A DNA stretch of 64,000 nt from Clitopilus passeckerianus. Lineage: Eukaryota > Basidiomycota > Agaricomycetes > Agaricales > Entolomataceae. This document shows, piece after piece, positions 1,093 through 64,000 of this stretch. The notes under the pieces were generated by a model, which saw only the letters and a list, made by a program, of their open reading frames with translations, was not told the DNA's origin and ran no database searches. The DNA lies in NCBI GenBank assembly GCA_944990035.1, contig CALYLX010000141.1:678589-742588 (forward strand). The letters are read 5' to 3'. Both the position numbers and the translations under genes were made by a program. Position 1 is the stretch's first letter; every line of letters starts with the position of its first letter.

Positions 1093-2286
1093 TAGTAAGC
1101 TATGAATTCATGGTTGAGACTCCATCCCATGATCATCTGGCAAAAGATGAGGGTACTCAAGAGCCGACGTACTCAATTAAGGACGAAATTAGAGACTTCT
1201 GGCAAAGGCCGGCGTGGTTGCCTTGAATTTCGTCGTAACACCAGAGTAGATAAACAAGTGAAGTCAAACGAGCGTAGGTACCTCGAAGAAGGTTTCTCAG
1301 GCATTTTTGCTGTTCATCTAGGCATGCAGAATCCTATTTCACGGTTGTAGAGCGAAGACCCCGTACAAGATTGGTGACTTACCAATTGGGCACCCACAAG
1401 ACAAGAAATACACTCTGCGAGTCTACCAACGCTTTTGCTATTCATCGTGCGTTCGGTAAACTTTAGAAGTTCGCGGGCCATTGACATTGTGGTGTGATCT
1501 TCGGCTCTAGCTGACCATTGAACTTGGCCTTCTCACACCCATTTCGGCAAGTGGAGTTGGCTGGAACTATGTTCAAGGTGTTTGAGGGGAGGATTCCGAG
1601 TGGTTTGCCTTTGACTGACATTGATGAGGCAAGGGTTTCTTCACCAAACGATCAACTATTCCAAGGCTCTGAAATATTGAAGGGCTTGAGATTTACGCTT
1701 TCTGACTTGTTGATTTAAGGTGATGGTTTATTGAAATCTGATGTGTGTGCGTGGGCGTACATAGGCGATGCAAGCATCTTAGACACGGCAAGGGACTGTC
1801 ATTAGGAGGTTTCGGAGGGCGCTTATGTCAGCGCGTACCTGACGATATACCCCCTTGTATACCTCGTTAGGCAGGATAAAGTGATGGACAAGTGGTAACA
1901 AGAAACTTCGGGAGTCCTAAATTATGCCCAACACGAAGCCTCGCACGCTCGTTCCAACAGGAGAAGTTGGGTGGGAGCTGAATACGCCTTGTCCTCAAAC
2001 ACGAAATCGTTCTATCGGGAAGGATCCTATGAACCTTCTGGAAGACCAATAACGATTGATAACTAACTTCTATTATTCATTAGTTAGGCTTGTCGCGTTA
2101 ATTCTAGAACTCTACTCTAATTCATACCGATTCCTGACTACACCATCATTACCGAGAAAGGGAAGTTCCGTAACAATTCGTGGTTTTCTCATATATTGGA
2201 TGTCTCTATGGACGTGCTGGTTGATTAAGTTGAATGGAAGGAGTAGAATGGCGAATTACCATTCATTTCACACCTCGTTTCATAGT
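1093..2286. other. Intergenic, no supported gene
   Basis: Only short unrelated reading frames occur here. The first exon of the leftward NLR-like gene may lie near 1090-1260, but no convincing start was found. No RNA gene or repeat was recognised. Confidence 0.5.
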
Positions 2287-3467
2287 TCACACCTCGCCGG
2301 TGCCCCGATGATCGACCTTCAGATCGTACAGTTGAGAGCGAACCATCTGGCGAACTGCCATGGAGGCATCCTTCTCTGGTCCCTCGCTGGCCTGAAGAAG
2401 CTCGCTGAGAACCTGATGCTGACGCAGTAAGACGGAACGTTCAACATCAGACGGGGGCCGGGACAGGAAGAGGCGTGCCCAGCAGAATAATATCTTGGGG
2501 CAGTTTTTTGCACAACCTTGTGCGATTAGATCGTTGAACGGCAGGCGGGCGGACTCGCGCAGAATCGACCAGAAACGAGCGCGTGTATCCACCTTTGGAG
2601 TATCGGGATGAAGAAGAGCGTAGACGAGGTGGTCGTATTCTCCAGAGACGCGCTCTTCCGTGACGTTAAGAAGCGTTTCGGTGACGTTCAGGAGACTCTC
2701 GATGGAATTGAAGCTGTTGACGCAATGTATGAGACGTTTTGACTCCAGATATCGCACTATTGCTGACCAAGCCAAGGACGAGAGGACCGCCAAGAGCTCG
2801 AGCGCCGTACGAGCCACAAGCATACGTTTTGACTATGCAGAACCAGAGTTTCCGGGGTACCGAACGCCATGTGGAAGAGAATGTAGAGGAATAAGGTGAC
2901 GTAAAAGTAAACGTTCAACATCCAAGCCCCCACCGCTCCTATACCCGTTATTTGGATGAAACTGCTTAACCCAGCCATAAAGAACAGCAGGGATACACAT
3001 ATAAGCTCTTGAGTTGCAGCAATTGTGAAGGAGATATAGCAGATGCTGATCCATTGAGCATAACTTTGGTACAGGGAGAGCGGAGGAATCAGAGGTGGAA
3101 GTTGGGATTCAAGAACGCAAGGAAGTTGAAGAGTAAAGCAAAGGAACAGAAGAATAAAATTATATCCCCACAGAAATGACAGTTGAATAGCTCGAGGGCA
3201 AGAGCTCTGCAGGTCGTTTATCCAGGAGCTTCAGAAGCTGAGAAGCCCCTATGAAATACACAACTATGCCCACATACGTCAAAAGCTGCGGCGTCATGTT
3301 CACATCAGATTCGAATGGGCGTGTAGCGAAGCTCTTACCGTTGACGACTGCAGGGGATTTTGAGCTTTCCATGTTGCGACCACCGCATTGCGTTGTTGAA
3401 TCTCCTCCTTTGAACAGATAAGCCACAATCGCCGAATCGCATCGTTCTCGCTTGCGGTATCAGACAT
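2287..3467 (-). CDS. Multi-pass membrane protein, unknown function
   Basis: The likely start is the ATG at 3467 (MSDTASENDA), followed by a donor near 3342 (GTAAGAG). From about 3200 down to 2287 there is a frame with at least three strongly hydrophobic stretches: about 3165-3120 (FILLFLCF), 3060-2960 (SICYISFTIA, VSLLFFMAGL) and 2920-2860 (YFYVTLFLYILFHM). A predicted cytosolic tail of about 180 residues follows. The tail holds a small tandem repeat (LLNVTE twice, near 2650-2690) and ends at the stop at 2287. The join between the first exon and the membrane part (3200-3300) is ambiguous because both GTAAGAG and GTATGT donors are present. I do not recognise the family. It is likely an integral membrane protein restricted to fungi. 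Confidence 0.5.
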
Positions 3468-60165: not shown

Positions 60166-61229
60166 TTTACTGGTCTTGATTTCTATTAGACATTTTTCGT
60201 TCTTGCCTTGGAATTGTCCACTGCCATTTGTATTATCTTCACCCCACACACGATGTAGTTCTATCACATATTCCTTTGATGTACAATATTTGAAACTTCG
60301 TTCACTGTATATATGTATCTTAACCATTATATTCGGGCACTGTCCTGTACCTCTCGTGTTCGTACCGTCTGCATCACGACCTAGTTGCCTAATACACGTC
60401 CATTACCCCCTGATGAAGTTCCGGATGAACACGAACCCCTTGACGGCCTGTATATCTGAATATACTCTCGTGCTGTGTGCTACAGTACGCATGTCAAAGT
60501 ATTATGCAGGCTACAATCACCCGATTGGGAGTCGCTTGTCTTTTGGCAGGAACATGATCTCATGCCCTAGACCATAGCTCTTAATATACGCTGTTGCCTC
60601 TGCAGTCGTCAGATTGCCGATTGCAGCTACTGTGGTGAGTGGAGGAGGATTATGCCATTCGAGTTACTGGAGCTTGGTTGATAGTAGAACCCAAATAATG
60701 TAGGAGAGAAGGACGATTTTCAATAGAGGACTAACCCTGCTGCCCCGAAATTTGAATACTGGTGAGCCCAGGAGCCAATACTGTTGCAGAAGTATTCACC
60801 AGAATCGAATACTGCACGCTTAGAAACCAGCCCAGCTGCGGTTTAGGCCAGCAGGACATGTAATCTTTCATACTCATTGTATTATATGTACTTAGAATTA
60901 CTTGAACATGTAATGAACTCGATGCGTACCTTACAAATGTGTGACGTGCACGCTAAGAATAGAAATATCGAAGCCACCACTGCCATGTGACCGGCCCAGA
61001 TCAACAATTCTGACTGAGATTTGCGTTGGTCACCAGCTCGAAGATTGCCGTGGCGCAAATATCTTCTACGCCATGCTGAAGCACTTTACCATTAATCCCA
61101 ACCGTTACCCGCTGATCCGAAGGATACACCGAGATAGAAAATGTCCGGGATTGGTGGGTGCCCGGCTGGGCCGACTATTCTCGATGAAACACAATCATAC
61201 CGCCAAGATGAATCAAGCACACACAGGGT
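60166..61229. other. Subtelomeric intergenic region
   Basis: 3' region of the HMG-box gene and about 900 bases with short frames only. A short telomere-like GGGTTTAGGG sits at the border with the retroelement (61226-61235). Confidence 0.45.
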
Positions 61230-61639
61230 TTAGGGTAGTAGAGTTTCACGACCTTGCTGGAAGGCCGGAGCGAAGCGTAGGTCTGGAAGCTTGGGAGTAG
61301 GCGTGTAAGGCAGATGCGGTGTCTGGAAAGTCCCAGAGGTTGATGAAACCACCTGGCCAGAACTTTCGCTGTTTATATACAGCTCATCAGTCCGTCGACA
61401 TGTGTTTACCTGACACCACACGGTGCGCCGTCGTGCAACCGTGCGGGACTCCTTATCATGTGTTATACTTACTTAGCTTGGCGCGCTATTTTCGTTGTTG
61501 ACTTGCTAAAGTCCGAGACGCGATGGAACGGCGAAACGTTAACATGACGAAATGCGAACATAACGAGATGTAACGAAACAGCTGAACTCGGGTCCTCGTG
61601 AGGCCACGATCGATTCTGCACCTTCTAGACATTTCCCCT
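61230..61639 (-). repeat. Left pseudo-LTR direct repeat of the Penelope-like element
   Basis: 410 bp, nearly identical to 63396-63804. The only differences seen are one inserted base and one substitution around 61311-61319. It starts TTAGGGTAGTAGAG and ends ACATTTCCCCT. It includes a hammerhead motif on the minus strand. Confidence 0.9.
61320..61401 (-). ncRNA. Hammerhead ribozyme motif, left copy
   Basis: Read on the minus strand: stem I 5' strand (AUGUC, GACGGA part), core CUGAUGA, stem II GCUGU/ACAGC with loop AUAUAA, core GAAA, and a long stem III that begins GUUCU and closes with GGGACU. The cleavage triplet is CUU, predicted between 61328 and 61327. The 3' side UCC pairs with GGA, and after a small internal loop GACA pairs with UGUC. 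All conserved core bases are present. This copy lacks one outer stem I pair that the right copy has. Confidence 0.8.
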
Positions 61640-62549
61640 GTGGCACGGAGAAACCAGTGGAGCGGTGAGTTCGATCATCTCGACGAGTGGATGTAGCGGA
61701 ACTGCCCAAGGCGCATTGCATCATCCATACTAACGGCTATCTTGACGATATCCATCAAAACTACTCGTTAGCGATCAAGCGTTGGACTGAAGTAATCAAA
61801 TCCAGTGTTAGTGTTCGGTTGTTACCTAGACGCGTGCGTAAACGGATGTCAACTAGACATCGTCGTGTCATACTCGACGCATTTGTATGGTATGTTGAGG
61901 TCTAAAGCCTGCCGAGTCGTTCCCCTTATGGGGGGATCAGTCCGGAGTTCGCGATAGTCCTTACCGTTTTTAGCCGGTTTAGGTTTAGCTAACGGTGAAC
62001 ACAAGTAAGTAATAGTTCATCTACCAGAGAATCTCGATGAACCACGTACGGTTTAGGGTTTAGGGTAATGCGGGGAGTACTCTCCGTCCCTAAGTTGAAT
62101 CCTGCGATGCCCAATATCGCTTGCAGAGGCGTAGCGACGCTCCCAATAAAGATGTCGTCACAATTTCCTGCATTACCATACGTTGATAAGTTGCCATAGT
62201 CTGCATAAGAGGTATATCCTTTCATACTAACTATTTCTTGTCACCCAGTTAGGCCCTTATATCTGTTGCTACGGGAGGGAATGAGATGTCGACTAAACGT
62301 GCACAGATCTCACCGTAGGAATTAGGGATCTTCGCCCGGGGAACGCCCGAGTACCAGAATCTAAACGCACAGATTTTAAGCGATGCGTCGGGGAACGAGA
62401 TGACGACTTAACGTGAATCAGATCTGCCCGACGATTCTCAGCGAAAACGTTATTAAGCGTGCTGATCGACGTTTACCCGAGACTGTAGCAGTTAACTCGG
62501 TACCTGGCGGGTAACAATAGTCTAATTAGACTACTTAGCGTATCATTGA
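61640..62549 (-). other. Interior 3' region of the Penelope-like element
   Basis: About 900 bases between the left repeat and the stop codon of the enzyme fragment; probably its 3' untranslated region. It holds two TTTAGGG units at 62052-62065 and TTTAGG units at about 61978-61989. No other gene. Confidence 0.5.
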
Positions 62550-63395
62550 TCAAATATTATGATGGACATATTCCAGATCACCTGGCTCTGGACGGTTCCC
62601 TTGTCGGTACTGAGTCGCAGGCTGGGTATTCACCGTTTCAACTTCGGGTTCCTCTGGAACTATCTCGTCAATATGGTTTTCCCGTAATAAATTTTGATCA
62701 ATGCGAGAGATTACTTGTTTTTTCCACGACGAAGATACGTCAAACAAATTTCGTGTTCGTTTTTTCGAAACAAGCACGCGGCGGTCTAGGATATCAAGTT
62801 TCCGGATATCCGGGAGTGACACATAGTGCTTGCTTATGGCAAAGAACTGGTCTCGACATTCGAGGCCAGATTCCCAATCCTCTGGTTCGGGGTACGCGCT
62901 TCCCAGTTTACCTGAGTCGTACGCTTCCATGTACTCTTTCCAGTGACCATACATTAATCTCTCAACTTCTTTAGCGTTAAAGAAATCCCACGCACTGTTG
63001 AATTCGGATTTAAGAACGAGCAGCCCATGTGGTTCCTCTTCGTCTTTCCTCAAGGTGAGACGTTGTTTCCACCGCTCATCGATGTTATTCTTAATCCAGG
63101 CTCTAACGAGTGCTTCCGGATATCCACGACTGATGTACAGCGCTTGCAATTGCGCTATTTGCTCGACGTAATCTGATTTACGAGAACATAGCGTGGCTAT
63201 CCGGGCAACTTCACCATAAACGACGCCTCGTTTGACGATCGTAGGATGAAAACTGATCCAGGGTATTCTTTCTTGGTGGTTTCTAGCCTTCCTATACGGC
63301 TTCCATTGTAAATGATTGAATTCGTCTTTGAATATCAACATGTCTAAGAATGGAGCGCAGTGAAATGAGACTTCCCACACAATCTGGCAGTTGAG
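62550..63395 (-). pseudogene. Reverse transcriptase fragment, Coprina-type Penelope-like element
   Basis: About 280 codons open from the right-repeat border down to the stop at 62550. It reads WEVSFHCAPFLDMLIFKD, then WKPYRKARNHQERIPWISFH and PTIVKRGVVYGEVARIATLC. YISRGYPEALVRAWI follows, then FNSAWDFFNAKEVERLMYGH and KKRTRNLFDVSSSWKKQ. This is the end of the reverse transcriptase core and the thumb/C-terminal part of endonuclease-less Penelope-like proteins of basidiomycetes (Coprina). The catalytic aspartates (YxDD) and all upstream motifs are missing, and no GIY-YIG endonuclease follows. There is no ATG at the beginning; an in-frame TAA sits at the junction with the repeat. It is therefore a 5'-truncated pseudogene. 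Confidence 0.85.
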
Positions 63396-63804
63396 TTAGG
63401 GTAGTAGAGTTTCACGACCTTGCTGGAAGGCCGGAGCGAAGCGTAGGTCTGGAAGCTTGGGAGTAGGCGTGTAAGGCGATGCGATGTCTGGAAAGTCCCA
63501 GAGGTTGATGAAACCACCTGGCCAGAACTTTCGCTGTTTATATACAGCTCATCAGTCCGTCGACATGTGTTTACCTGACACCACACGGTGCGCCGTCGTG
63601 CAACCGTGCGGGACTCCTTATCATGTGTTATACTTACTTAGCTTGGCGCGCTATTTTCGTTGTTGACTTGCTAAAGTCCGAGACGCGATGGAACGGCGAA
63701 ACGTTAACATGACGAAATGCGAACATAACGAGATGTAACGAAACAGCTGAACTCGGGTCCTCGTGAGGCCACGATCGATTCTGCACCTTCTAGACATTTC
63801 CCCT
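63396..63804 (-). repeat. Right pseudo-LTR direct repeat of the Penelope-like element
   Basis: 409 bp copy of 61230-61639. Its right end (ACATTTCCCCT) joins directly to the telomeric array, while the left copy continues into element sequence at the same point. Confidence 0.9.
63484..63566 (-). ncRNA. Hammerhead ribozyme motif, right copy
   Basis: Same core and stems as the left copy. Stem I is slightly better, with GACAU pairing AUGUC. Predicted cleavage is between 63493 and 63492 on the minus strand. Confidence 0.8.
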
Positions 63805-63938
63805 TAGGGTTTAGGGTTTAGGGTTTAGGGTTTAGGGTTTAGGGTTAGGGTTTAGGGTTTAGGGTTTAGGGTTTAGGGTTTAGGGTTTAGGGTTTAGGGT
63901 TTAGGGTTTAGGGTTTAGGGTTTAGGTTTAGGTTTAGG
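63804..63938 (+). repeat. Telomeric-type TTTAGGG array
   Basis: About 19 units of TTTAGGG, with one TTAGGG variant near 63844 and three degenerate TTTAGG units at the right end. The G-rich strand runs rightwards, as at a right chromosome end, but non-telomeric sequence follows, so the array is internal here. Confidence 0.95.
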
Positions 63939-64000
63939 TGCTGATGAGTTCTCGTAACAGGACGCAATTAACCTTAGCAATACGTAACTGAACGAAGTAC
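63939..64000. other. Non-telomeric sequence beyond the array
   Basis: 62 bases that begin TGCTGATGAGTTCTCG. They may be the start of another subtelomeric element. Too short to classify. Confidence 0.3.

Follow-up and report, generated by a model that had tools for sequence, protein, structure and literature searches.

We analysed a window of 64,000 nucleotides (nt) from the basidiomycete Clitopilus passeckerianus, near one end of which two truncated copies of a retroelement, copy A and copy B, lie head-to-tail against a terminal telomere array. The retroelement most probably belongs to the Coprina-type, endonuclease-less Penelope-like elements, and each copy carries a hammerhead motif in its 3' repeat, which resembles a pseudo-long terminal repeat (pLTR). 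The repeats in the window fall into families of 300 nt and 82 nt, with spacings of 2165 and 2166 nt, and the initial annotation had taken them for the two direct repeats of one element. The copies meet at ACTACCCTAA (63405-63396). This junction, together with the scatter of 5' breakpoints among the other copies, fits better with two distinct copies, both truncated at the 5' end, of which copy A is a solo 3' piece added onto copy B. Among the best 120 of 546 matches to a kinesin exon in the window, the leading named ones come from Lyophyllum, Hypsizygus and other Agaricomycetes, and on this similarity the host matches Agaricomycetes.

Features at the element-bearing end of the window (positions along its 64,000 nt)
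Feature	Position	Strand	Description	Basis
Copy A	63396..63803	minus	5'-truncated 3' piece (pLTR-like repeat); element positions 2987-3385; ends ACTCTACTACCCTAA; telomere-capped	
Copy B	61225..63395	minus	5'-truncated; C-terminal part of reverse transcriptase, 3' untranslated region, repeat; element positions 1232-3385; ends ACTCTACTACCCTAAACCCT against other sequence	
Repeat (pLTR-like 3' end) of copy B	61230..61638	minus		sequence, repeat listing
281-aa open reading frame	62550..63395	minus	C-terminal part of the element's reverse transcriptase; begins past the YIDD motif	
Hammerhead motif of copy A	63484..63566	minus	predicted cleavage 63493/63492	sequence, fold, descriptor
Hammerhead motif of copy B	61319..61401	minus	predicted cleavage 61328/61327	sequence, fold, descriptor
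Terminal telomere array	63804..63935	minus	(CCCTAAA)n	
Leftover sequencing adapter and barcode	63936..64000	not assigned	not genome	

On the minus strand, the motif of copy A runs in the order AUGUC, GAC, GGA, CUGAUGA, GCUGU, AUAUAA, ACAGC, GAAA, stem III, CUU/UCC (the slash marking the predicted cut), A and GACAU; copy B ends in GACAC, which turns the outermost stem I pair from A-U into A-C. Stem II consists of five perfect pairs, stem I of an inner (GGA/UCC) and an outer part (AUGUC/GACAU), stem III is long and capped, and the cleavage triplet is CUU. The motif has the same sense as the 281-aa open reading frame (ORF; 63395-62550). Every part that the initial annotation had listed for the two repeats is thus present in the sequence, its two cleavage sites agree with the position count, and the shared sense with the reverse transcriptase (RT) fragment is borne out. 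We then used a descriptor, designed after the motif had been seen, that requires CUGAUGA, a stem II of at least 4 pairs, GAAA, a stem III of at least 4 pairs closed by A-U, H17 and a stem I of at least 3 pairs. On both strands of the window it matched only the copy A and copy B sites. Across 81 extracted, overlapping loci (251,719 bases) it gave 50 matches, every one being the element's motif, and the four telomeric ends that lack the element (C13, C16, C40 and C54) had none. A single strand of first-order Markov sequence, simulated to a length of 30 Mb, was also free of matches. A full core with three stems therefore exceeds chance expectation. The core of CUGAUGA, GAAA and an NUH triplet is found in 24 of 24 genomic copies, and 23 of these carry the full descriptor with its three stems. 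In the minimal type I hammerheads that animal Penelope-like elements carry, helix III is short or absent; the motif here differs, and its long stem III may allow it to cut as a monomer.

The repeat occurs in 24 copies on 22 of the 160 contigs, a count that leaves out a 25th, miniature copy on contig C146 described below. A single repeat copy lies on 20 of these 22 contigs, and C141 also has copies head-to-tail. All 24 copies share one orientation, the near edge of each being no more than 3258 nt from a contig end. All 22 element-bearing ends are telomeric, out of 39 telomeric ends recognised in total: 38 of 64 telomere-pattern places were accepted (36 exact and 2 with one mismatch, the other 26 having two to three mismatches), C106 was identified separately, and C75 and C143 were accepted as chromosome ends without their contig extent being seen. 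The 22 outermost copies adjoin the terminal telomere array, so that insertion at telomeres in a fixed orientation, with 5' truncation by telomere repeats, is the rule. The 5' ends are scattered, with 23 distinct breakpoints among the 26 listed, the mini copy included; the breakpoint near element position 2566 in three copies is ambiguous, as it coincides with an internal telomere-like motif. This is a double CCCTAAA in the 3' untranslated region (window 62065-62052, element position about 2566), at or near which C36, C146 and C110 are truncated. At their 3' ends the copies read ACTCTA, frequently ACTCTACTA, then telomere-like units, some imperfect, and then 24 different flanks. Two 3' forms exist, a long one in 18 of the 24 copies (L001-L018) and a short one in 6 (L019-L024), the latter without 54 nt located between two ACTC repeats just past the hammerhead; these 54 nt contain a second TTCCAGAC resembling that at the cut. 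From the predicted cut to the element 3' end is 33 nt in the short form and 87 nt in the long. None of the 24 repeat copies has a 3' end at the cleavage site, where one would lie if the 5' product had been the template.

Several further observations concern these chromosome ends. The telomere unit at 63804-63935 is TTTAGGG, now and then TTAGGG; to our knowledge, TTTAGGG is unusual for a basidiomycete. Sequence the same or nearly the same as 63936-64000, presumably an Oxford Nanopore adapter and barcode, was found at 18 element-bearing ends, at C97 and at 4 further telomeric ends read. Subtelomeric sequence (GAGTATGAAAGATTACA...CTGGTTTCTAAGC) is common to the window at about 60876-60800 and to C97 (L066) downstream of the element. 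On C26 (L023), an internal piece of the element, 127 nt long (positions 800-926), is flanked on either side by telomere-like repeats and lacks the usual 3' end.

The initial annotation had held that absence of the motif from other genomic copies would count against it; the motif is present in those copies. In the 83-nt block, 22 copies are identical, and L008, the inner copy of the window, lacks the outermost stem I pair. The block holds 2 differences in 1992 cells, and the part of the repeat upstream of it 43 in 5661 (p = 0.0003); the copies are not independent. It is the least variable among eight 83-nt windows compared; the adjacent 83 nt are almost equally conserved (4 differences in 1992), and for the tail 29 of 731 were counted, a figure that a small indel makes too high. 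The stems show 2 changes in 24 copies, neither compensatory. DNA relatives were also sought in viral and prokaryote contigs, where 136 and 177 pattern stretches yielded none.

To place the element, we turned to its RT. The 281-aa ORF has 44 homologues and no Pfam match at E <= 10. The longest genomic copy (C97) spans 3.4 kb up to the telomere, which cuts the 5' end of its open 699-aa frame; the N-terminal part of the RT frame is missing from every copy mapped. This frame has 405 homologues, with Armillaria ostoyae and Lentinula edodes among the matches listed, contains YIDD, and matches Pfam RVT_1 below the cut-off only. It continues for about 57 residues beyond the last conserved block; no GIY-YIG endonuclease was found at this C-terminal position, which has no room for one. 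Seven homologues likewise gave no GIY-YIG at E <= 0.1, though Pfam also missed the RT itself in five of them, and the GIY-YIG Pfam model found none in the genome (a control was detected in 12 of 14). A structure model of the C97 RT, of middling confidence with a mean predicted local distance difference test (pLDDT) of 63.6, ranked telomerase RT first in both structural comparisons, viral RNA polymerases lying within 1 Z; telomerase RT as the top match fits the expectation for a Penelope-like RT. Since the longest copy encodes an RT, the element is not a Retrozyme, a small non-coding unit with a hammerhead. The name Coprina occurs in a listing in PMC6515669. The initial annotation's hammerhead motif in a fungal element is supported, with the core in all 24 copies, and "Coprina-type" is the most likely assignment. 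Searching solved structures by sequence was unproductive, and an RT family search scored 150 of 447 candidates. The nearest NCBIfam and PDB profiles to the C97 frame (P0045) and to an Armillaria homologue (P0189) are those of the bacterial defence RT Drt3a (P0189 at E 3e-8, below the cut-off). A search of the genome for a divergent Penelope-like family, with one homologue as the query, gave seven matches, six in known copies and one in a decayed piece. This piece (C157:727574-727714) belongs to a more distant related RT, with 44-45% identity and 2 stops, lies in the opposite orientation and overlaps the end of a young copy.

A possible trace of cleavage was found on C146. Searching the genome with a 16-base pattern of the element tail, one mismatch allowed, we obtained 26 places: the 24 copies, one in a contig interior (C110:1303629, one mismatch, set aside unread) and one in C146, a search that more decayed tails would escape. 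Of the 25 element tails, 24 extend through the hammerhead and the one in C146 does not. It is a 42-nt mini copy (L025, 1043-1084) just inside a full copy, followed by other sequence, and reads ...ACTACCCCAAA/TCCAGACATCGC...CCTACTCTACTACCCT, the slash marking its border. The first element base is position 3299, and the predicted cut falls at 3298/3299; the border is clear because the preceding base, A, differs from the T of the element. The mini copy is thus a possible footprint of cleavage in vivo, representing one event.

As a whole, we consider it quite probable that this is a telomeric Coprina-type Penelope-like retroelement whose 3' hammerhead motif is predicted to cut the element's own RNA, probably only in part. 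The 3' end of the element RNA would anneal to the G-rich (TTTAGGG) overhang, the telomerase-like RT would copy the RNA onto the chromosome end, and telomerase would then cap it. Where copies lie head-to-tail, transcripts running through the array would be cut between copies by the outer copy's hammerhead, giving new 5' ends. Cutting is likely to be partial for two reasons: the cut takes away the tail that would anneal to the telomere, so that complete cutting would prevent the 5' part from retrotransposing, and a predicted, more stable hairpin hides the site. It may therefore stay partial, be restricted in time, or be used in arrays for trimming off sequence upstream. The start of the C146 mini copy at the cleavage nucleotide suggests that a severed tail may once have been copied onto a chromosome end. 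A bolder version, which we regard as rather unlikely, takes the mini copy as a cleavage fossil: the ribozyme-released tail of about 42 nt would by itself serve as the template for the telomerase-like RT, extending the C146 end like a miniature telomerase RNA, and the ribozyme would act as a switch, balanced by the competing hairpin, between full retrotransposition of uncut RNA and short-tail telomere capping after the cut.

Two results, from Rfam and from folding, weigh against the hammerhead reading. The covariance-model check proposed in the initial annotation came back negative, as Rfam returned no hammerhead match at the gathering threshold and no acceptable one at E <= 10 either. When 97 nt alone were compared with Rfam, the best of five weak matches was RF00008 (type III hammerhead) at 16.8 of the 48.5 bits required, aligning chiefly the core. 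For this reason we speak of a hammerhead motif and assign it to no curated Rfam family. When the 83 nt are folded without constraint, the minimum-energy structure is a longer hairpin (-24.8 kcal/mol) rather than the hammerhead, which comes to -21.4 kcal/mol under constraint; stems II and III are kept, with stem III prolonged through the core, and the cleavage site is bridged by pairing of GAAAG with CUUUC. Because the energy model ignores core contacts, the hammerhead is compatible with this difference, yet the competing hairpin suggests that cutting would be slow or in need of help. Confidence is further lowered by one copy, L019, which lacks an inner stem I pair and hence fails the descriptor. 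The Penelope membership is also made less firm by the closeness of the viral polymerases, the pLDDT of the model and the sub-threshold RVT_1 match.

The most serious competing possibility concerns C146, where the RT may simply have fallen off at the foot of a strong hairpin, or truncation may have been random; the mini copy would then be uninformative on cleavage. The other breakpoints are scattered, and 2 nt separate the end of the predicted hairpin from the cut, but an RT that stopped at the hairpin would have left a copy starting at CAGACAU, 2 nt further downstream, and not at UCCAGACAU. The chance of one exact match is 0.7% if the 23 distinct breakpoints are uniform over the element and 3-6% if only a start within the tail is considered, for a test that was framed after the result had been seen and rests on a single event.

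A second explanation, which we think unlikely but worth keeping in view, is that the fold works as a structural signal at the 3' terminus, where the RT would bind it with the telomere-like tail exposed, and that cleavage matters little. In the available part of a study of the lizard Poseidon element, hammerhead mutants had no effect on insertion in vitro and no RNA-seq ends lay at the site (PMC11167929), and Terminons are proposed to attach via an end made of hammerhead plus telomere repeats (PMC6431247). The order of hammerhead and telomere-like tail is also present here, and cutting would take the tail away. Against this, the core letters are intact in all 24 copies, seemingly beyond the needs of a binding fold, though the copies are young, and one copy (C146) starts exactly at the cut.

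Youth is also the basis of a third explanation, in which the motif is a non-functional relic. With 96-100% identity to the reference copy, the copies have had little time to decay, Rfam is negative, one copy has a broken stem I pair, and the descriptor fails on L019; we nevertheless find a relic improbable, given that the motif is the least variable of the eight windows and that its core and three stems exceed chance. Least credible of all is a single element with two terminal repeats whose hammerheads would release a 2165-nt unit, as the initial annotation had envisaged: two same-sense repeats do lie 2165-2166 nt apart and C141 is similarly arranged, but most contigs have one repeat copy, copy B begins inside the RT (element position 1232) at the ACTACCCTAA junction, the breakpoints reject one element with two long terminal repeats, and the unit would lack the telomere-annealing 3' tail, each cut stripping 33 or 87 nt and so presumably spoiling the template.

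Coprina elements are reportedly the endonuclease-less Penelope-like elements of basidiomycetes of Gladyshev and Arkhipova (2007), and Cervera and De la Pena (2014) reportedly name fungal elements in their abstract, the fungal and protist variants being stable monomers. Like Coprina, the element has a basidiomycete host, no GIY-YIG found, a telomeric position and RT homologues in other Agaricomycetes. Among the titles and abstract beginnings of the literature searched, none reported a hammerhead from a named Coprina element. The initial annotation knew of no described fungal Coprina example; however, according to a review, every available Penelope-like element displays a hammerhead (PMC6155905), so that hammerheads in such elements are already published, and what is new is one testable hint, the C146 start at the cut. 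For Pleurotus ostreatus, five type III hammerheads were found by Rfam, and the portion of that text available makes no link to retroelements (PMC5040776). As in other Penelope-like elements, the hammerhead lies inside the terminal repeat, has the sense of the RT and occurs in tandem, with a type I layout (stem I open). The usual ones are minimal and without helix III in the parts available of two papers (PMC6155905, PMC7761336), unlike the long, capped stem III here, with which the motif could act as a monomer. The accessible account of the bdelloid Terminons/Athena (PMC6431247) describes RT frames without the endonuclease, attachment to telomeres via C-rich repeats adjoining a 3' hammerhead, 5' truncation by telomere repeats and head-to-tail arrays, all as seen or predicted here. 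Terminons are giant units with accessory ORFs, whereas the longest copy here is 3.4 kb with one partial ORF and the telomere repeat is TTTAGGG; as every mapped copy is 5'-truncated, the full element may be longer. Poseidon PAc of Anolis is likewise a Penelope-like element with a hammerhead, active in PAc and predicted here; it differs in having an endonuclease, and, in the available part of the report, its hammerhead cuts only with protein present and no RNA ends lie at the cut in public RNA-seq (PMC11167929).

In the available portion of one paper, the activity and role of the hammerheads of Penelope-like elements in vivo are called still a mystery (PMC7761336). With many assembled chromosome ends, 24 near-identical copies and one start at the predicted cut, the element of C. 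passeckerianus makes such a role testable by genomics, and its long stem III, which may permit cutting as a monomer, would make simple biochemistry feasible.
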